Source: a virus
Virus record (IMG/VR): IMGVR_UViG_3300042288_000536
Location: 1-29,786 of that record
DNA length: 29,786 nt
Strand: one strand, 5' to 3'
In this document: piece after piece, positions 4,994 through 28,689 of the stretch
How positions within the stretch are numbered: position 1 is the stretch's first letter
How the letters are laid out: each line of letters starts with the position of its first letter
The notes under the pieces: generated by a model
Told to the model about the DNA's origin: nothing
Database searches by the model: none
The model's input: only the letters and a program-made list of their open reading frames with translations
Position numbers and translations under genes: made by a program

Positions 4994-5391
4994 ATCACCG
5001 TATATGTCGCGAAATTGAAATAGTAATCCGCTCCGTCGAACAAGAACGTGATGACTGTCGTACCCGTGCCCGTCACGCTGCCCGACGCGCTAAATTTGCC
5101 GACGGGCAGATTGAGCGTGTAAGCTCCCTTTTTTATCAGCGTGTACACCATGCCCGCCACCGGGTTTGAAATTGTCAGCGTGCTGTTTACCGTCAACGTT
5201 TTCTCCTGCAAGGATGACAAAGAGCAGTCATAATTCAGTGCCGCCATCGTCACCTTTTGATCTATCCAGGGTACACTGTCGGCAACGTTGGCAAAGGTGT
5301 TTTGCACCTCCTGGCCGGTCCATTTATTTGTCCCCGTTGTAAAGGCGGCGGTGTTCTCCGTTTTAAAAGTTGTCTTAGACTTATATGACAT
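4990..5391 (-). CDS. Putative tail/baseplate protein, unknown family
   Basis: The 133-aa product has a polar N-terminus (MSYKSKTTFKTENTAAF) with helical character, then a beta-rich half with short repeated strands (KTLTVNSTLTISNPVAGMVY, GSVTGTGTTVITFLFDG). The C-terminal half reads like a small fibre-tip beta-sandwich as found at the ends of tail proteins. It begins one base into the preceding gene's stop (TAATG) and ends in an ATGA overlap, so it belongs to the same translationally coupled adhesion gene run. Confidence 0.6.
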   Translation of the reverse strand: MSYKSKTTFKTENTAAFTTGTNKWTGQEVQNTFANVADSVPWIDQKVTMAALNYDCSLSSLQEKTLTVNSTLTISNPVAGMVYTLIKKGAYTLNLPVGKFSASGSVTGTGTTVITFLFDGADYYFNFATYTVI

Positions 5392-6356
5392 TACGATTCA
5401 GTTAAGATGTGATATTTCTTTGTAAGCGTCGTGCCGGGATCCCCACTACCGCCATAAGTATGCAGCGATCCGGTGCTGGCGACCCATGCCGTCATGGCGT
5501 GCAAGTCAGTTATCGCCGATCCGGTCAGCTGTGTCCAGTCGATGCCGTTGGTGCTGTACCAAGTGTCCCCCAAGTTATCGCCTGGCGAACTTGTACCATA
5601 AAATCCACCAATGACCCATATTTTATCTTTCCATACTATGGTCTGATGATATTGGCGACCGCTGCCCGGGAAAATACCCTCCTGCACCCATGTGATGCCG
5701 TCAGCCGAGGAAAATATCTCTTTCGGGTATGTCCTGTTGGCAAGGCTTGTATCGTCGTAGATGCCGCCGCATATCTTCCAGATGCGCCCCTTATAACTCA
5801 CGCAGGATCCCCAAAGGTTGCCACCCGTGAATGGTGTGGTCGCGATCTGTGTAAAGGACACGCAGTTGTCGGTCGATTTCAGGACATTGTCATATTTGCC
5901 GTCAACAATATACCTGGTCTTTTGTCCGCCGATGATGTAGAACGCACCATTGTGATATGTCGCGCCCATCATATTCCGGACCCCGATGCCGCAGTTGCTC
6001 GCTTTTTGCGTCCAGGTCGTGCCGTTAAATACCCAGCTGTCCGTCGCCGGGAAAAAGACGTCTCCGCCTACAACGTAAACGGTATCTGACAGGACAAATG
6101 TCGCCGCCGTGTGGCGTTCCGCAAACGGGAGGTCCGACTGCTTTGTCCATGATGTGCCGCCATTAGTGGACTTATAAAAGTCTTTAAGGCTGTCGCTGTT
6201 ACCCTCCCATCCAAAAGCGATGAAATCATTAGCCCCAATACTGAACCCGAATGACCCGTCCCGCTCGTCAGGCCGACCGCTCGGCGTCGTCTCGCTCCAT
6301 GTGTACGTTTTTGGAGTGACAGATAGACCATTTTGAGATGCAAAAAGTTTCCTCAT
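5391..6356 (-). CDS. Kelch/Asp-box beta-propeller tail protein
   Basis: The 321-aa protein contains at least five Kelch-like blades, each with a hydrophobic strand followed by Gly-Gly (VYVVGGDVF, FYIIGGQKT, KICGGIYDD, IWVIGGFYG, HTYGGSGD), and an Asp-box of the sialidase type, STNGGTSWT near residue 85, with weaker relatives STDNCVSFT and STNGIDWT. This is a beta-propeller, a fold used for protein or glycan binding. There is no signal peptide and no set of sialidase catalytic residues that I can identify. It lies between the FnIII/lectin-like protein and baseplate-type proteins, so it is most likely part of the tail tip and may bind the host surface. An enzymatic role cannot be excluded. Confidence 0.75.
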   Translation of the reverse strand: MRKLFASQNGLSVTPKTYTWSETTPSGRPDERDGSFGFSIGANDFIAFGWEGNSDSLKDFYKSTNGGTSWTKQSDLPFAERHTAATFVLSDTVYVVGGDVFFPATDSWVFNGTTWTQKASNCGIGVRNMMGATYHNGAFYIIGGQKTRYIVDGKYDNVLKSTDNCVSFTQIATTPFTGGNLWGSCVSYKGRIWKICGGIYDDTSLANRTYPKEIFSSADGITWVQEGIFPGSGRQYHQTIVWKDKIWVIGGFYGTSSPGDNLGDTWYSTNGIDWTQLTGSAITDLHAMTAWVASTGSLHTYGGSGDPGTTLTKKYHILTES

Positions 6357-13360: not shown

Positions 13361-13880
13361 CCATTGCTCTTTTTATGTCCTTAACTATCTGCCTGGCGTT
13401 GGAAAGAAACGCAGGATACAAAAATGGCTGCGGCCTGATGCCCTCTTTCATAATTTTCCGCGCGATCAGGTAGGCATGATTTTTCGAATCCTTGCCTTTC
13501 TCAATGTAGCCTTTTTTCAGCCCCCATTCATGTATGGCATTCACCATGCCCCTAAATTTGCCCCTCTTTTTTCTTTTTTGAATCCGGCGTGCAATATCTT
13601 TTAATTCCGTCGGAACGACTGTCTTTCCCCTCGTACCAAACTCGATGTATGGCGCGTGATACGCATTTGCTGCCACCTCCCAAAGTAAATGTCCGACCTT
13701 TGCGTGTTGAATACTTTGATGGATGCCTGATAAATAAATTGGCGCGCGCATAATCGCATCTTTCTCTATTTTTATCACTCCGGCCTCAAGCGCGATATCA
13801 ATCTCTTCCGTCAGTTCGTTCTCAACGTCCCTTAATTGGTTGAGGGCTTTTTGAACCCCGACCAGTTTGAAATTAATCAT
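13344..13880 (-). CDS. HK97 gp10-like head-tail joining protein
   Basis: The 178-aa protein has the hallmarks of the HK97 gp10 family: an N-terminal helix (LRDVENELTEEIDIALEAG), the motif RAPIYLSGIHQSI, YIEFGTRGKTV near residue 80, and the C-terminal RPQPFLYPAF. Between these, a basic insertion (RRIQKRKKRGKFRGM) lengthens the protein relative to common members of about 120-150 aa. Such proteins take part in head-tail completion. It starts four bases into the end of the next upstream gene (ATGA) and overlaps the terminator gene by 17 nt. Confidence 0.85.
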   Translation of the reverse strand: MINFKLVGVQKALNQLRDVENELTEEIDIALEAGVIKIEKDAIMRAPIYLSGIHQSIQHAKVGHLLWEVAANAYHAPYIEFGTRGKTVVPTELKDIARRIQKRKKRGKFRGMVNAIHEWGLKKGYIEKGKDSKNHAYLIARKIMKEGIRPQPFLYPAFLSNARQIVKDIKRAMDEKSG

Positions 13881-14380
13881 ATCACGATCCTTTTATACCA
13901 CGCGCTCGCCAGTTCCGGGAAACTGGTTAGGCTGGCGGTCTCATTGCTTAACTCGATGCCCCTGTTCTGATATGACCATGCGACAATTCTTTTAAGGTCG
14001 TTAAGGATATCATCCGGCACCGTTGTGTACCCGCACTGGTAAAGTATCTCATGCACACCTGGCGAATACACCTCAATGCTATCGCCGTATTGTTTATAAG
14101 TCACGCAGTCCCCCTCGCTTGTTACGGACAAGATCCCCGTCACGGGACCGGGCAATGTGTACAGGTCCATTGGTGACATGTCCACGGTCAGCTTGATGGT
14201 CTTTTTCCCGAGCTGCAAGCCTGTATAATTCTCAAGCCAAAGGCGGGCGTTTTTGCAAAGTGACGCAATCAGTGCGTCATCATCGCTGAATGATATTTTC
14301 ATCGCCGCCTTCGCCGCCGCTGTCGTCAGCGGTTCCGTCGAAAGGTCTGTCTGAATTTCTTTTGCGATCAATAAATTCAT
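13877..14380 (-). CDS. Head-tail connector, gp6-like
   Basis: The 167-aa protein resembles the HK97 gp6-like connector family: EPLTTAAAKAAMKIS at the N-terminus, the helix DDALIASLCKNARLWLENYTG, the short strand KKTIKLTVD, and a C-terminal helix DILNDLKRIVAWSYQNRG. These proteins form a ring below the portal. In most phages this gene follows the major capsid gene directly; here five genes, four of them glycosyltransferase-like, lie between. It overlaps the GT4 gene's stop by 4 nt, so it is translationally coupled to that cassette. Confidence 0.85.
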   Translation of the reverse strand: MNLLIAKEIQTDLSTEPLTTAAAKAAMKISFSDDDALIASLCKNARLWLENYTGLQLGKKTIKLTVDMSPMDLYTLPGPVTGILSVTSEGDCVTYKQYGDSIEVYSPGVHEILYQCGYTTVPDDILNDLKRIVAWSYQNRGIELSNETASLTSFPELASAWYKRIVI

Positions 14381-15363
14381 CGTTGTTCCCTCTTTGCTTT
14401 GAAAATGAAATCCTCGATTTTTTGCAGTCCCCCCAATGGGTCGAGCTCGATGGCCCGCTCCTTTGCTTTTTTAGATGCTGCGGAGTATGCTTTTCTTTCA
14501 TCGAGCTTTTTAATCGCCTTGACCCAGTCCTCTACCTTGTCCCGGTCCTGTATATAAATTCCCGCCTCTCCACAATTTTCAAGTAGCCCCGGAGTGCTTG
14601 AGCATATCACCGGGATCCCGCTCGCCATCGCCTCCGTCGCCGTCCGTCCCCAGCTTTCGTATTTGCTCGGCATTATCAGGATGCGTGTCTTTTCATACAC
14701 TTTCCTGATATCATCCTGCTTTTCCCATACCTCGACATTCTGCGGCTGGTCAATGTGCTGCCCTATGGATGCAGGCTCCGAATACGATCCTTTAACCCCG
14801 ATGAATTTTTTATCCGGCATTGCCTTTGCAATTTCGCGCAGGATATGCCCGCCCTTGTTGTGGTCGAGATTAATGAGCGTAATATACTCACTTTTGGCCG
14901 GGTCAGGGTTGCAGTTGTACACACGATAATCACATGCCGGCGGAACTACGATAGATCCGTGATTATAATTTAGTTTTTTCGCGGCCCATTCCGAATTATA
15001 AACTATGTATTGCGGATTTTCTGCATCGACGATACATCCGTATTTGTGCGTGTTGTGTATAAGATGAATGACGGGCAGCTTGAATATTTTTGCCGTTTCA
15101 ATGGTCCATTGAGCATAGTCCAAATGCGTGAAAACAACGTCTGATGAGTTGAATAAGTTGGTGATAAATGTCGGGTCCGACGGGAACACATCAATTCCGT
15201 CATAAATATAATGCTCTGTAATCTTGTAATGGTTCGCCTGGTGCAGCAGCACTTTTACAGTGTGCCCTTTGCCTGCAAGGTATTTGTTGATTGCATGAAG
15301 CATAAACTCCGCGCCACATAAGTGCTTAGGCGGGTAAAGATGGACCGAGCAAAGTATGTTCAT
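14377..15363 (-). CDS. GT4-family glycosyltransferase
   Basis: The 328-aa protein is a GT-B fold glycosyltransferase. The N-terminus (MNILCSVHLYPPKHLCGAE) has the glycine-containing loop typical of family 4. The donor-binding half contains ITLINLDHNKGGHILREI and the EX7E motif ESWGRTATE in SKYESWGRTATEAMASG, followed by GIPVICSSTPGLLEN. GT4 enzymes move sugars from nucleotide donors with retention of configuration. There is no signal peptide or membrane segment, so it acts in the cytoplasm. It is the last gene of a glycosylation cassette set inside the head gene cluster and is coupled to the connector gene by an ATGA overlap. Sugar and acceptor are unknown. Confidence 0.9.
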   Translation of the reverse strand: MNILCSVHLYPPKHLCGAEFMLHAINKYLAGKGHTVKVLLHQANHYKITEHYIYDGIDVFPSDPTFITNLFNSSDVVFTHLDYAQWTIETAKIFKLPVIHLIHNTHKYGCIVDAENPQYIVYNSEWAAKKLNYNHGSIVVPPACDYRVYNCNPDPAKSEYITLINLDHNKGGHILREIAKAMPDKKFIGVKGSYSEPASIGQHIDQPQNVEVWEKQDDIRKVYEKTRILIMPSKYESWGRTATEAMASGIPVICSSTPGLLENCGEAGIYIQDRDKVEDWVKAIKKLDERKAYSAASKKAKERAIELDPLGGLQKIEDFIFKAKREQR

Positions 15364-15565
15364 GGTATTCCAGTTCGATTAATATATCAAGATAATGCCG
15401 CGCTTTTTTTAAGTCCTCAAGTCCATTCTTAAACTTGTGGCGCATGATGTACTTTATGATGTTCCCCTCGATGTATGGCAGCCCGTTGGCATGGATAAAT
15501 TCAATCGGTTGAATCTTCCATTGCTTGTAATGCTGACCGCCCTCCTGCGTTTCTAACGCGCTCAT
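15326..15565 (-). CDS. DUF3310 family protein
   Basis: The ATG at 15565 overlaps the stop of the fucosyltransferase-like gene (ATGA), giving 79 aa; the longer in-frame reading is an artefact. The core GQHYKQWKIQPIEFIHANG and GNIIKYIMRHKFKNGLEDL with KKARHYLDILIELE matches the DUF3310 family, found in many phages and sometimes labelled nucleotide kinase on weak grounds. In other phages it usually sits with DNA-replication genes, so its place between two glycosyltransferase genes is odd. The last 12 codons overlap the GT4 gene start. The biochemical role is unknown. Confidence 0.8.
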   Translation of the reverse strand: MSALETQEGGQHYKQWKIQPIEFIHANGLPYIEGNIIKYIMRHKFKNGLEDLKKARHYLDILIELEYHEHTLLGPSLPA

Positions 15566-16305
15566 ACAACTATCCATTTTTCCGGATAAATGTCTTTGGT
15601 CTCCAAATGCGCCGCCGCCGGACCGAACCATTGTCGAGGCGCGACCACTTGCCCGCCGGCGAGCCATGCAGCCCACCAGGAAAAGGTGCTATTTGCAATA
15701 ATGTGGTTAGCGCATTTTTTCATCAGTCGGAAATCATCATAAGTCGTCCCGCTCTGAAAAACATCATGCCCGCCCATAAACTGGCCGAGGATCTCCTTTG
15801 CCTTGACAATATCGTCCGAAAAAATCATGTAGGGCCCCTTTAGATGCTTCATCGCCTCGGCATAGTACCATTTGCTGCAAATCGGGTGGTAATCGCCTCC
15901 ATAGTCGCCGCACCTGATATGGATGGCGGTGTAAGGCAGCGGATCGATCTCGTTTTTTAATGTGAATAGGCGGCGGATATAGTCCGCGCAGTGAATAAAA
16001 TACTTTTCGCTTTGCATATGCCCGACATAGGACCACCCATCAGGATGATTCAGCCCTTGCCAGCCCCAGGCGATGTAATAATCGGCCATCTCCATGTCCA
16101 AGCGGTTTATGGTCTCCCAATACGGAAACCACCGCCCGACATTGATATCTTCCTTACTTCCAAAACGCTCTGCCGCGTCATGGTTCACCCACTTCGGAAA
16201 AGCATAGTCGTACCCGTTCGCCTTTGCGATGCCGATCGTGCTGGCCACCTGAAAGAGCTGGTTTGCAAAACGGCCGTATCGTCCCAGGTTGGCGAATGTC
16301 ACCAT
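15562..16305 (-). CDS. GT11-like fucosyltransferase (alpha-1,2 type)
   Basis: The ATG at 16305 is chosen because it overlaps the preceding stop by 7 nt and starts the conserved domain at once (MVTFANLGRYGRFANQLFQ). The product is 247 aa. GRFANQLFQ is the N-terminal family signature; HIRCGDYGGDYHP is the HxRxGDY-type GDP-fucose binding motif; ANSTFSWWAAWLAGG is the third typical block. Together these identify family GT11, which transfers fucose from GDP-fucose, usually in alpha-1,2 linkage. It has no signal sequence. The gene overlaps the GT-A-like gene upstream and the DUF3310 gene downstream. The donor is inferred from the family; the acceptor may be a virion glycan or a host polysaccharide. 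Confidence 0.88.
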   Translation of the reverse strand: MVTFANLGRYGRFANQLFQVASTIGIAKANGYDYAFPKWVNHDAAERFGSKEDINVGRWFPYWETINRLDMEMADYYIAWGWQGLNHPDGWSYVGHMQSEKYFIHCADYIRRLFTLKNEIDPLPYTAIHIRCGDYGGDYHPICSKWYYAEAMKHLKGPYMIFSDDIVKAKEILGQFMGGHDVFQSGTTYDDFRLMKKCANHIIANSTFSWWAAWLAGGQVVAPRQWFGPAAAHLETKDIYPEKWIVV

Positions 16306-16988
16306 TCCCCATTCCTTTTCCTGTGATGGTGAAAAATGACCGGGTATGTGTCCATGTAAGTACCCTTGTCGTATATAAACGCCCCATCGTTGTACATCGC
16401 CGGCCACCAGTGTAATTTAAGTCCGTGCCACTGTTGTAAGCACGTTAAAATCGCCTGATCGTGCCTATGCTCTTGAAACTCCGGGAACTGGTCCACCTTT
16501 AGCACATCATTGATAAAGTTGGGCATTTGCGACCACAGCAGCCACTCCCGCACAAAGTTACGCGAGAACTTTGTCGCCTTGATGACAATGGCCGAAGCCT
16601 GCGCCTGCAATTTGTCCAGGGCGAACATGCGAACGTACACCTCGCGCTTGCACCAGTGTATATGCCGGTAATGGTTGCCAAAGATCATAATGTCCTGGTC
16701 CATTGCGTCCACCAGATGTTGAATATTATCTACGACTTCGACCCCTGCGTCGATATAAAGCAACATATCATTTTCGTCCATGTTGGAAAGGCACTGATCG
16801 ATGATGTACGGTTTCCATAACCAATACCCCGCCCCGCGCGGATGGTTCAACGTGTCAAAGTTTTGCAAATAAAACTCCGATGATATTTCAGCATGGATCG
16901 GTGTCGCTCCGAAATTTTGCGCGGACCTTAAAGCAAGATCCCTGCTTCTGCTCATGTTCTCGCTCGCATATGTCGTGACGTATATCAT
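16299..16988 (-). CDS. Putative glycosyltransferase, GT-A-like with DAG motif
   Basis: The 229-aa protein begins MIYVTTYASENMSRSRDLAL, a nucleotide-sugar-binding-like strand and helix. The block GAGYWLWKPYIIDQCL (about residues 52-67) is followed by MLLYIDAGVEVV, where GT-A enzymes carry the DXD metal-binding motif; here it reads DAG. Later HRHDQAILT and the closing YPVIFHHHRKRN resemble C-terminal metal-binding and catalytic segments of the fold. I recall this YWLWKP/DAG pattern in poorly characterised bacterial proteins near polysaccharide genes. Its neighbours are a GT25-like gene and a GT11 gene, with 4- and 7-nt overlaps. The call as glycosyltransferase is likely but not certain. Confidence 0.65.
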   Translation of the reverse strand: MIYVTTYASENMSRSRDLALRSAQNFGATPIHAEISSEFYLQNFDTLNHPRGAGYWLWKPYIIDQCLSNMDENDMLLYIDAGVEVVDNIQHLVDAMDQDIMIFGNHYRHIHWCKREVYVRMFALDKLQAQASAIVIKATKFSRNFVREWLLWSQMPNFINDVLKVDQFPEFQEHRHDQAILTCLQQWHGLKLHWWPAMYNDGAFIYDKGTYMDTYPVIFHHHRKRNGEW

Positions 16989-17596
16989 ATCAATTCACGA
17001 AGATAATCCTCTGATGCGGTAAATGTATCGGTGTAATCCACATTCCTGTCCCAAAGGTCCGAGCGGGTCGGGCGCTGAAAAGAAAGGAATGGATATGTCA
17101 CATATGCGCTATAATGCGGCAATATAGTGTCAGAAAGAAATGTGTCGTACATGATGCCGTCATGATACATCTCAATGATGCTGGCGGCCATGTCGGCAGT
17201 GTACGCGACGGCATGGGTAGTGTATGCGGCCGTGACGCGAAAAATGTGGTCAGTGACTTTTATAGGCGCCGGATGATCCGGGTACGGTCTTAAGTTCGCG
17301 CCGAAATAGATAATATCCCACGCCTTAGGCATCTCCGCCATGATCTCATCCAGCCTGTCCATGTGCCTAAATGTGGCGTCATCTTCAAACAGGATGGCGG
17401 TCTCTTTGCCGGTATCGACAAAGTCCAGCAGCATGGCGATTTGAGACTTGTTAAAACTTGCATGCGGACTTTCGTCCTCTATGGCATAGAACCATTTGAA
17501 ACTGAAATCTGCCCCCTGCTCGAACAAATATCGGCGGTCCACCCTGGCGCGCTGCGTCAAGACGGCAATGTGTTCAAAATGGTCGTTAAAGTTCAT
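16985..17596 (-). CDS. GT25-like glycosyltransferase (LPS-type)
   Basis: The first ATG is at 17596 (MNFNDHF); an in-frame TTG at 17605 lies almost in the terminator tail and is less likely. The 203-aa product matches the GT25 pattern: HIAVLTQRARVDRR at the start, the acidic block ILFEDDATF near residues 68-76, WDIIYFGANL, the THAVAYT block, and the C-terminal PFLSFQRPTRSDL. GT25 enzymes usually add galactose or similar sugars to lipopolysaccharide or protein. This gene opens the cassette right after the capsid gene's terminator, so its expression may depend on read-through or on a promoter I cannot see. It has no signal peptide. Confidence 0.8.
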   Translation of the reverse strand: MNFNDHFEHIAVLTQRARVDRRYLFEQGADFSFKWFYAIEDESPHASFNKSQIAMLLDFVDTGKETAILFEDDATFRHMDRLDEIMAEMPKAWDIIYFGANLRPYPDHPAPIKVTDHIFRVTAAYTTHAVAYTADMAASIIEMYHDGIMYDTFLSDTILPHYSAYVTYPFLSFQRPTRSDLWDRNVDYTDTFTASEDYLRELI

Positions 17597-17609: not shown

Positions 17610-17647
17610 AAAAAAGGGAGCCGCCCGGCGCGACCCCCCTTTTTTTT
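17610..17647 (-). terminator. Hairpin terminator after the capsid gene
   Basis: On the minus strand eight A residues and a G run are followed by the stem GTCGC/GCGGC (loop GCCGG, one G-U pair), flanked by GGG/CCC and A6/T6 pairing and ending in TTTTTT. It lies 4 nt after the capsid stop codon and 14 nt before the first glycosyltransferase ATG. The A/T symmetry means it could act in both directions. Confidence 0.8.
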
Positions 17648-17651
17648 AGAA

Positions 17652-18800
17652 TTATGCAGATGTGCCGGTCGTACCGTAAACTGCTGCCTTCGGCTGGAAC
17701 GAGAGGAGCTCGATCCGGGCCTCGGCGCGGTAGGTGACGAGGTTCTTGATGAAGTCGCTCTGATCGAACTCGGTGCTGCGAACCTGCAGGCCGGAAGCCT
17801 GGGCGGTTGCGAACGCGTCGGTGTTCAGAACGTAGAACCTGCTGCCTGTTACCTGGCTGTGCGGAACCACGGGGATACCGTTGATGCGGATACGGCCGTC
17901 GGCATCTACTGCAACGGATGCAGGTACGCCAAAGTTTGACGGTTTAGTCAGCAGCAGAGTAGACCATGCGGCCCATGTGGTCAGGATCAGGTTCGGCATG
18001 CCGAGACCCAGGTCGCCATGCTGTGCAACACCTGCAATCATCTTCGACACGGTCAGTGTCTCGGAGGTAGACAGCGCGGTGCTGTTGGTGGCGATGGTGT
18101 TCAGGTACCTTGTATTCACAGCCCTGTTCCAGTCCTCGATAAGGGACTGCGAAAGGTAGGACTGGAGGAAAGGCAAATCCTGAAGCATCTGGCGGGACAC
18201 TTTCACGTAACCAGCGATAAACGGAACACTCACGTTCACCATTGTCACATCGTAGTCGATCTGTGCCTTGTCATTGCCTTCGGTCTGTGCTCCAAACGAT
18301 CCCTCACCGACGGGGCTGTTGCCACGCGGGAAAGTCACGTTTCCGGTAGCGGTCGGAACAATCCGGAACACATCGTAAAGATGAGGATTATAGAACGACC
18401 TCATGATCGGGTTCGGAACGTAGCTGATCTGGCTGGTGCCGGTCAGGTTGTCGGTCAGGTTCATCGTGCCGACGATTTTCATCGCGGAGAATGCCTGCTC
18501 GGACTTCATCTTCTCATGGTTTTCGGCCACGATCTCGTTAACAGCGTTCTTAAGGTAGTCGCTGTTAGTCCAGCCTGCTTTTTCCACCTGCGCGGCTTTC
18601 AGCTTACCGTTGGAAGCCACAAGGCTGTCTACCTTTGCTTTCAGCTCGGCAATGCTCTCGCCTTTTTTGGCGGCATCTTCATTCAGTTGTGCAACGTCTG
18701 CGGCGACCTTGCTGTCAAGTTTGGCGACCTCTGCGGTCAGCTCGTCTTTGTGGCCCTTGAGCTTTGGGTCAAGTGCCTCCATGATGTCTTTTACTTCCAT
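17652..18800 (-). CDS. Major capsid protein, HK97 fold
   Basis: The 382-aa protein has an N-terminal coiled-coil scaffold (delta) region of about 65 residues (TAEVAKLDSKVAADVAQL and following), then the HK97-type coat domain: GTSQISYVPNPIMRSF, the E-loop region NSPVGEGSFGAQTEGNDK, YVKVSRQMLQDLPFLQSYL, RINGIPVVPHSQ and the C-terminal TYRAEARIELLSFQP. The delta domain is normally removed by the prohead protease, encoded 1 nt upstream. The start ATG at 18800 follows the protease stop in the string CATTTTTAACATG. A strong hairpin follows the stop codon. Confidence 0.93.
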   Translation of the reverse strand: MEVKDIMEALDPKLKGHKDELTAEVAKLDSKVAADVAQLNEDAAKKGESIAELKAKVDSLVASNGKLKAAQVEKAGWTNSDYLKNAVNEIVAENHEKMKSEQAFSAMKIVGTMNLTDNLTGTSQISYVPNPIMRSFYNPHLYDVFRIVPTATGNVTFPRGNSPVGEGSFGAQTEGNDKAQIDYDVTMVNVSVPFIAGYVKVSRQMLQDLPFLQSYLSQSLIEDWNRAVNTRYLNTIATNSTALSTSETLTVSKMIAGVAQHGDLGLGMPNLILTTWAAWSTLLLTKPSNFGVPASVAVDADGRIRINGIPVVPHSQVTGSRFYVLNTDAFATAQASGLQVRSTEFDQSDFIKNLVTYRAEARIELLSFQPKAAVYGTTGTSA

Positions 18801-27653: not shown

Positions 27654-28478
27654 TTAAAATAATGTCGGCATGATTTTATTAATCTTGGTTTTTGCAAATC
27701 CTAATTCTGCTATTTCTTTTTTTATTAATTGTTCAGATTCAAGCCATGCTTTTGCTTTTGTATAAAATTCTTTTTTTATTTCAAATCCATAAGATTTTCT
27801 GTTTAATCTTGTGGCTGCTATTAAAGTAGAACCACTACCGGCCACTGGATCAATTACAACATCTCCTTCATCTGTAAATATTTTTATTAAATTTTTCAAT
27901 AATTCAACTGGTTTCTGTGTTGGATGTAATTTTTCATTTTCATTATCACGCGGCCAATCCATGCAATTAAAAATCATTTTCCCTTCATTATTAAACTTTG
28001 GAAGTTTATCACGATATAATATTAAGCCATATTCGCAATTTCCAACGATTTTCATGTTAGCTTTTAATACTTGTGCGGAAAAATTTTTTCTAAAAACTAA
28101 ATTTATATAATTATTTAAGCCGTATCGTTTAGCCAATTCTATCAAATACATTTGCTGATCATAAGCACAAAAAACTATCATGCATGGTGCATTACTTTTA
28201 TTTTTTTGGCCTGTTTCATTTTTTGATTGTTTTGGTTCATTTTTTAACATCGTGCTACAAAAATGCATAAATTCAGCCGGTCTAAAATCTTCATCAGTAT
28301 CAAAAAAATTTTTGCCCGCTAATTCGCTTTCTCCATTTGCATTATCTCCATCTTTATACCATGCCGGATTCGAAGCATATGCATTATTGCCAAGATTATA
28401 AGGAATATCAGCAATAATTAATTGCGCTTTTGGTATTTGATAACCTTTGTAATTTTGAAAATGATCTCTGTAAATCAT
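27654..28478 (-). CDS. DNA methyltransferase (N4/N6 type, beta order)
   Basis: The ATG at 28478 (MIYRDHFQNYKGYQIP) is chosen because the preceding gene stops at 28480; ATGs further up lie inside that gene. The 274-aa product has the catalytic motif IV as DIPYNLG (residues 24-30, a variant of DPPY), the KLHPTQKPVELLKNLI block, and the AdoMet-binding motif I VIDPVAGSGSTLIAA near the C-terminus. Motif IV before I is the beta class, typical of N6-adenine or N4-cytosine enzymes. No restriction enzyme partner is visible, so it probably protects phage DNA or regulates expression. The gene is visibly much richer in A+T than its neighbours, a sign of recent acquisition. Confidence 0.88.
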   Translation of the reverse strand: MIYRDHFQNYKGYQIPKAQLIIADIPYNLGNNAYASNPAWYKDGDNANGESELAGKNFFDTDEDFRPAEFMHFCSTMLKNEPKQSKNETGQKNKSNAPCMIVFCAYDQQMYLIELAKRYGLNNYINLVFRKNFSAQVLKANMKIVGNCEYGLILYRDKLPKFNNEGKMIFNCMDWPRDNENEKLHPTQKPVELLKNLIKIFTDEGDVVIDPVAGSGSTLIAATRLNRKSYGFEIKKEFYTKAKAWLESEQLIKKEIAELGFAKTKINKIMPTLF

Positions 28479-28479
28479 G

Positions 28480-28689
28480 TTATTTGTTTTGGTGTTTCCC
28501 CCCATGCTCACATACCCCATTCTGACCGCTTATCCTTTTGTAATGAAACTGCGCTGATTCGCAGGCTTTCTTCTCGAGCCATGTCCAGAAAGTATCCCAG
28601 GCGTTCTCCACTTTCTGGCACATGCTGCATGCTGCTGCCGGTTGTATCAGGCTAAATGCGATAAATAGACAAATGATGTACTTTTTCAT
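28480..28689 (-). CDS. Small exported cysteine-containing protein
   Basis: The 69-aa product begins MKKYIICLFIAFSLIQPAAA, a Sec signal peptide with likely cleavage near Ala20; the next residue is Cys, but the preceding PAAA is a poor lipobox. The mature part has the CSMCQ pair and two more cysteines, with the aromatic run WDTFWTWLEKK. It may form disulphides in the periplasm. No family is recognised; superinfection exclusion or a membrane accessory role can be imagined but not shown. It overlaps the stop of the preceding gene (ATGA) and lies 1 nt before the methyltransferase. Confidence 0.65.
   Translation of the reverse strand: MKKYIICLFIAFSLIQPAAACSMCQKVENAWDTFWTWLEKKACESAQFHYKRISGQNGVCEHGGKHQNK

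Follow-up and report, generated by a model that had tools for sequence, protein, structure and literature searches.

A glycosyltransferase cassette in the head operon of an uncultured phage lineage, probably of Bacteroidota

Genes and features of the locus

The window, that is, the whole stretch of 29,786 nucleotides analysed here (IMG/VR virus record IMGVR_UViG_3300042288_000536), carries on its minus strand, in this order, the genes for large terminase, portal, MuF-like protein, protease and capsid, five genes that we call A-B-C-D-E, and those for the connector, a gp10-like protein, the tail terminator and the major tail protein. The cassette formed by A to E is anchored upstream by the gene of an HK97-type major capsid protein (17652..18800, minus strand; PF05065, 5.6e-14; phrog_10) and downstream by that of a gp6-like head-tail connector (13877..14380, minus strand; PF05135, 1.6e-7), the start codon of which overlaps the stop of E. 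Between the capsid stop codon and gene A there is a hairpin of the intrinsic-terminator type (17610..17644, minus strand) with a 15-bp stem, a T-rich 3' arm and a folding energy of -23.2 kcal/mol (z -4.8). The position of this hairpin is conserved among relatives and its sequence changes. A first-pass annotation had proposed here GT25-like, GT-A-like, GT11 and GT4 glycosyltransferase (GT) genes together with one DUF3310 gene, and all five were found intact at that place on the minus strand.

Gene A (16985..17596, minus strand, 203 aa) codes for a GT25-family glycosyltransferase. The window's own copy gave no direct match in Pfam, and PF01755 (GT25) was matched by 10 of the 20 sequences in the gene A alignment. 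Its AlphaFold model (mean pLDDT 94.8) matched in Foldseek the human collagen galactosyltransferase COLGALT1 (GT25, TM ~0.7) and mimivirus R655, and it is this fold, with an invariant EDD motif (residues 74-76, numbered in the TTG-started frame), that places A in GT25. Gene B (16299..16988, minus strand, 229 aa) has a GT-A fold in its AlphaFold model (pLDDT 93.5), nearest in Foldseek to LARGE1, the blood-group enzymes GTA/GTB and LgtC with TM values of 0.5-0.6. No GT family in Pfam, GT6 and GT8 included, was matched by the members of gene B and the likeness is one of fold alone, so that it can be called only a GT6/GT8-like fold. Gene C (15562..16305, minus strand, 247 aa) belongs to GT11, the alpha-1,2-fucosyltransferase-type family, by its match to PF01531 (E=3e-18, 66.5 bits against a cut-off of 23.9) and its invariant HxRxGDY motif, and also matches phrog_2644 (3e-49). 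Gene D (15326..15565, minus strand, 79 aa) is the DUF3310 gene (PF11753, 7e-15). Finally, gene E (14377..15363, minus strand, 328 aa) codes for a GT4-family enzyme matching PF13692 (9e-17) and PF00534, with the invariant E-x7-E motif of the family (E236-x7-E244). A start of gene C at 16407 was rejected in favour of 16305, and non-ATG starts of A and D were discarded for the ATG at 17596 and for the frame 15565-15326, respectively, these choices being the ones that fit the relatives and the gene junctions.

In 18-21 diverse members the catalytic-type motifs are kept (A, EDD; B, YxDAGVE and EHRHDQ; C, HxRxGDY; E, E-x7-E), and all the GT genes are under strong purifying selection, with dN/dS of 0.02-0.10. 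Consecutive genes overlap at every junction from A to E and into the connector, which bears out the translational coupling proposed in the annotation. ATGA overlaps are found at the junctions A/B, C/D, E/connector and connector/gp10, the B/C overlap has 7 nt and that of D/E 38 nt, and because of these overlaps the cassette and the connector can be regarded as one translational chain. The search for a promoter serving the cassette gave matches near the chance level.

For the terminase of the window the closest sequences come from Parabacteroides and Phocaeicola phages (38%), and for the capsid from phages of Cellulophaga and Flavobacterium (24-29%); for the portal, the best among the matches listed were Arthrobacter phages at ~23%. 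On such sequence similarities the host of the lineage is likely a member of the Bacteroidota. A search for E at a cut-off of 1e-40, run without a positive control, gave no match in the 396 genomes covered from the phylum of G018. A prophage or host origin was looked for by scanning genome contigs with the gene B (A2) profile, and only remote host-type genes were returned (22-41% identity). Among isolates there was neither a near DNA match to the window nor a phage carrying gene A, and gene B had only cyanophage and metagenomic matches at 23-28% identity. Elsewhere in the window, two proteins of the same major-tail-protein family (phrog_1407) are coded in this one genome (12491-12934 and 7562-8173, minus strand), and a Kelch-type-repeat-like protein with no PHROG match lies among the tail genes (5391-6356, minus strand), possibly part of a receptor-binding or adhesin structure. 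There is also a separate N6/N4 DNA methylase at 27654-28520.

Position and variation of the cassette among relatives

In IMG/VR, at least 447 relatives were counted by scanning with E. When the capsid alone was the query, so that the cassette could not influence the selection, 67 viral contigs were obtained, 43 of them reaching the connector or beyond. E was found between capsid and connector in all 43, and B-C-E in 40 (the label of gene A is absent from some of these contigs, clipped by the reading-frame filter). In the scan seeded with E, which added 66 further loci, the capsid lies at most 8 kb upstream in 59, and the remaining seven end within 1.9 kb. Among recognised genes the connector directly follows E in 161 of 162 cases, some of the loci overlapping on the same contig. 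Furthermore, the order of the cassette is kept down to a capsid identity of ~30% (L010-L029). From these counts and this conserved order we conclude that the block belongs permanently to the head operon of this uncultured phage lineage, probably one of Bacteroidota, and is no stray insertion. A scattering of the four GT genes at unrelated places, which would have spoken against the annotation, was looked for, and in every testable relative the block lies between capsid and connector. The annotation had also described this as a place normally without cargo. This holds for the isolates nearest to the window (Cellulophaga phi10:1, Flavobacterium 11b and hattifnatt), which have no annotated GT between capsid and connector, but not of the lineage itself, in which cargo is the rule.

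Within this fixed frame E stays constant, and what changes is the set of genes that separates it from the capsid, among them GTs, FkbM and other methyltransferases, a feature newly found here. In one subgroup a single methyltransferase, mostly of 162-186 aa, stands instead of A-B-C (one cluster of 46 sequences, with PF13489 in a member). Only A precedes E in L249-L252, and L240 has an FkbM-type methyltransferase before E, an enzyme type that more distant phages carry between B and C. An MptE-like (PF01973) protein is found in the cassette region of L045; this domain is also present in the flagellin-glycosylating Maf proteins. The DUF3310 gene D occurs only in the closest relatives and is not a core part of the cassette. 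A short DNA-methylase-like gene is inserted between B and C in L036 (12495-13100) and L042 (4461-5060, with PF01555 in the latter). The stretch from capsid to E is enlarged in L014, L016, L025, L026 and L029 by apparent homing-endonuclease-like and tail-like inserts, the GT order being kept.

A terminator-type hairpin behind the capsid gene is also a property of the lineage. Of 111 unique downstream sequences from relatives, 99 showed behind the capsid gene a stem of 7 bp or longer followed by a T tail. The corresponding numbers were 0-4 for each of eleven other genes and ~0 for shuffled sequences, and the hairpin is there whichever cassette type comes next. The hairpin probably caps transcription from the capsid gene and lowers the expression of the cassette and the connector. 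Such a terminator could also insulate inserts, and the gap between capsid and connector might then be a recombination-tolerant hot spot that gathers unrelated cargo, its GTs having no common virion role. In some relatives the gap does hold apparent homing endonucleases and further small genes, which would agree with this, but the cargo is overwhelmingly made of GTs and methyltransferases, its order is fixed, E is constant, and A, C and E co-diverge with the capsid, so we regard a simple hot spot as improbable. In the capsid clade, pairwise divergence correlated with that of the capsid with Spearman coefficients of 0.75 (A), 0.76 (C), 0.85 (E) and 0.48 (B), and for comparison the tail tube gave 0.68 and the connector 0.57; none of 300 permutations reached any of the observed correlations. 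For the most part the block is inherited together with the head, B being exchanged more.

Proposed function of the cassette

No transmembrane segments were found in A-E, and therefore the products are predicted to be cytosolic, as would fit a cytosolic glycosylation of proteins. We think it reasonably probable that this part of the head operon is a module of the phage's own for glycosylating virion proteins in the cytosol. The suggestion of the first-pass annotation that the phage builds a short glycan, possibly with fucose, on its own capsid or tail proteins gains support from the position of the block, kept in the relatives, and from the actinophage precedent (PMC4351075; PMC11600133). The first sugar would most likely be added by E (GT4), to the capsid or the tail tube as structural proteins from the same operon. 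The glycan would then be extended and capped by the GT25 enzyme A, the GT6/8-like B and the GT11 enzyme C, the last probably with fucose from GDP-fucose. In other members, FkbM and other methyltransferases replacing the extension genes would make the outer glycan differ between strains with the attachment step constant; that E attaches and the other genes tailor the outer glycan would be the simplest reading of the exchange pattern. Through the terminator after the capsid gene, the GTs, the connector and the tail genes are probably held below the level of the capsid. The scheme thus proposes an acceptor, an order of sugars, donors and a dosage effect, and the benefit for the phage might be shielding, adhesion or the tuning of host range. 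The capsid and the tail tube showed no consistent Ser/Thr-rich C-terminus as an acceptor mark, and position alone does not separate the capsid from the tail tube or from another late-expressed target.

The donors would normally be nucleotide sugars of the host. Relative G011 carries a gene for GDP-mannose 4,6-dehydratase (L269:3362-4453, minus strand; TIGR01472, 591.6 bits against an equivalog cut-off of 415), located between small genes and the terminase pair, just upstream of the terminase genes. This enzyme catalyses the first step towards GDP-fucose and other GDP-6-deoxyhexoses, and its presence in one relative would fit a GT11 using a fucose-type donor. The gene was found in just 1 of 42 long records, which is why we assign the donors normally to the host. 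As for a nucleotide-sugar pathway of the phages' own, an epimerase was present in 1 of 17 records, and the window, which may be incomplete, has neither this nor the dehydratase.

The target could also be a host polysaccharide, and the main rival to virion glycosylation is that the enzymes alter the host surface during infection, for superinfection exclusion or for the release of progeny from receptor-bearing debris, the head-operon placement meaning late expression only. GT11, GT25 and GT4 enzymes are common in LPS and capsule synthesis, and the cyanophage homologues of the GT11 gene adjoin nucleotide-sugar genes. Against this, the block has no membrane component, flippase or lipid-carrier enzyme and none of its products a transmembrane segment, it is locked in beside the capsid across a very large divergence, and the documented precedents of similar layout modify virions (PMC4351075; PMC11600133). 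We therefore consider the alteration of the host surface unlikely. Phage GTs are also able to act on DNA, adding sugars to it, and DUF3310 often occurs in phage proteins that bear the name nucleotide kinase, so that the substrate might be hypermodified bases of the phage genome. However, a search of 17 records, fragments among them, found no member of the thymidylate synthase/dCMP hydroxymethylase family (PF00303), the GT families matched by A, C and E are of the protein/glycolipid type, and the genes lie in the head operon and not beside replication genes, all of which makes DNA a most improbable target.

Returning to virion glycosylation, a more specific form of it can be put forward only tentatively. 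The whole lineage, which is apparently abundant, might obligately decorate its capsid with a self-encoded oligosaccharide, the outer part of which (fucosylated and possibly blood-group-like, or methylated) would change from strain to strain as the genes between capsid and E are exchanged, giving "glycan serotypes", the conserved terminator setting the dosage. To our knowledge, phage virion glycosylation has so far been shown mainly in a few actinophages. If the module acts on virions, its lock-in within the head operon of a large and apparently uncultured lineage would imply that tailed phages with a sugar coat are common in nature. The succession capsid, terminator, variable GT/methyltransferase, GT4 and connector would then serve as a search signature, and comparing the naturally swapped cassettes would offer a test of what phage glycans are for.

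Comparison with known systems

Our search of the literature, with subscription papers mostly outside its reach, found no report of the cassette of this lineage. GT11 homologues of C (34-39%) are found in the sugar clusters of Kyanoviridae (S-SM2, P-TIM68 and S-SRM01). In S-SM2 the GT11 gene lies beside a gene annotated as GT25, and in P-TIM68 a homologue of B adjoins it. These phages differ in that their GT11 gene is surrounded by nucleotide-sugar genes, away from any annotated head gene, and in their genome size of 175-240 kb. The GT11 family itself is thus not tied to capsids, since these cyanophage relatives have no annotated head genes in the vicinity.

The closest layout is that of the Corndog-type (cluster O) mycobacteriophages, in which an O-methyltransferase (gp35) and the GTs gp36-gp38 lie inside the head cluster, between portal and protease (PMC4351075). 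The products of this block are reported to modify capsid and tail tube (PMC11600133, citing Freeman et al. 2023). As in the cassette, four adjacent modification genes (32-35 in phage Dylan) are placed within the head cluster, the window lineage having the order capsid-cassette-connector in 43 of 43 contigs. One of the GTs belongs to GT25 (PF01755), as does A, and the mixture of methyltransferases and GTs is also common to both. The systems differ in the site of the block (portal-protease versus capsid-connector), in the methyltransferase, of the TylF type in Corndog-type phages, in the other GTs, which there are GT2-like or unassigned, and in the phylum of the host, that of the window being an inferred one. 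Moreover, the profiles of A, B, C and E gave no match to Dylan 32-35.

A glycan is also carried by the capsid of mycobacteriophage Che8 (cluster F1; PMC11256854). Its genes 108-110 include the GT25 member gp110 (PF01755, 1e-7), weakly matched by the gene A profile, and a fusion of GT2 and TylF methyltransferase, a GT-methyltransferase pairing like that of the cassette. However, the Che8 genes lie at the far right end of the genome and GT2 takes the place of GT4, GT11 and GT-A. No homologous enzymes were found to be shared with the Corndog-type and Che8 modules, the GT25 Pfam family alone being in common.

The best isolate homologue of E is gp20 of the Streptomyces phage TurkishDelight, with 30% identity over the full length and a profile E=8e-95. 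It differs in being a fusion of two GT4 domains, with a predicted function and no A, B or C in the phage, but like E it lies between the capsid (gp17) and a head-tail adaptor (gp23). By its likeness to the Corndog-type, Che8 and TurkishDelight systems, the cassette may work as a virion-glycosylation module.
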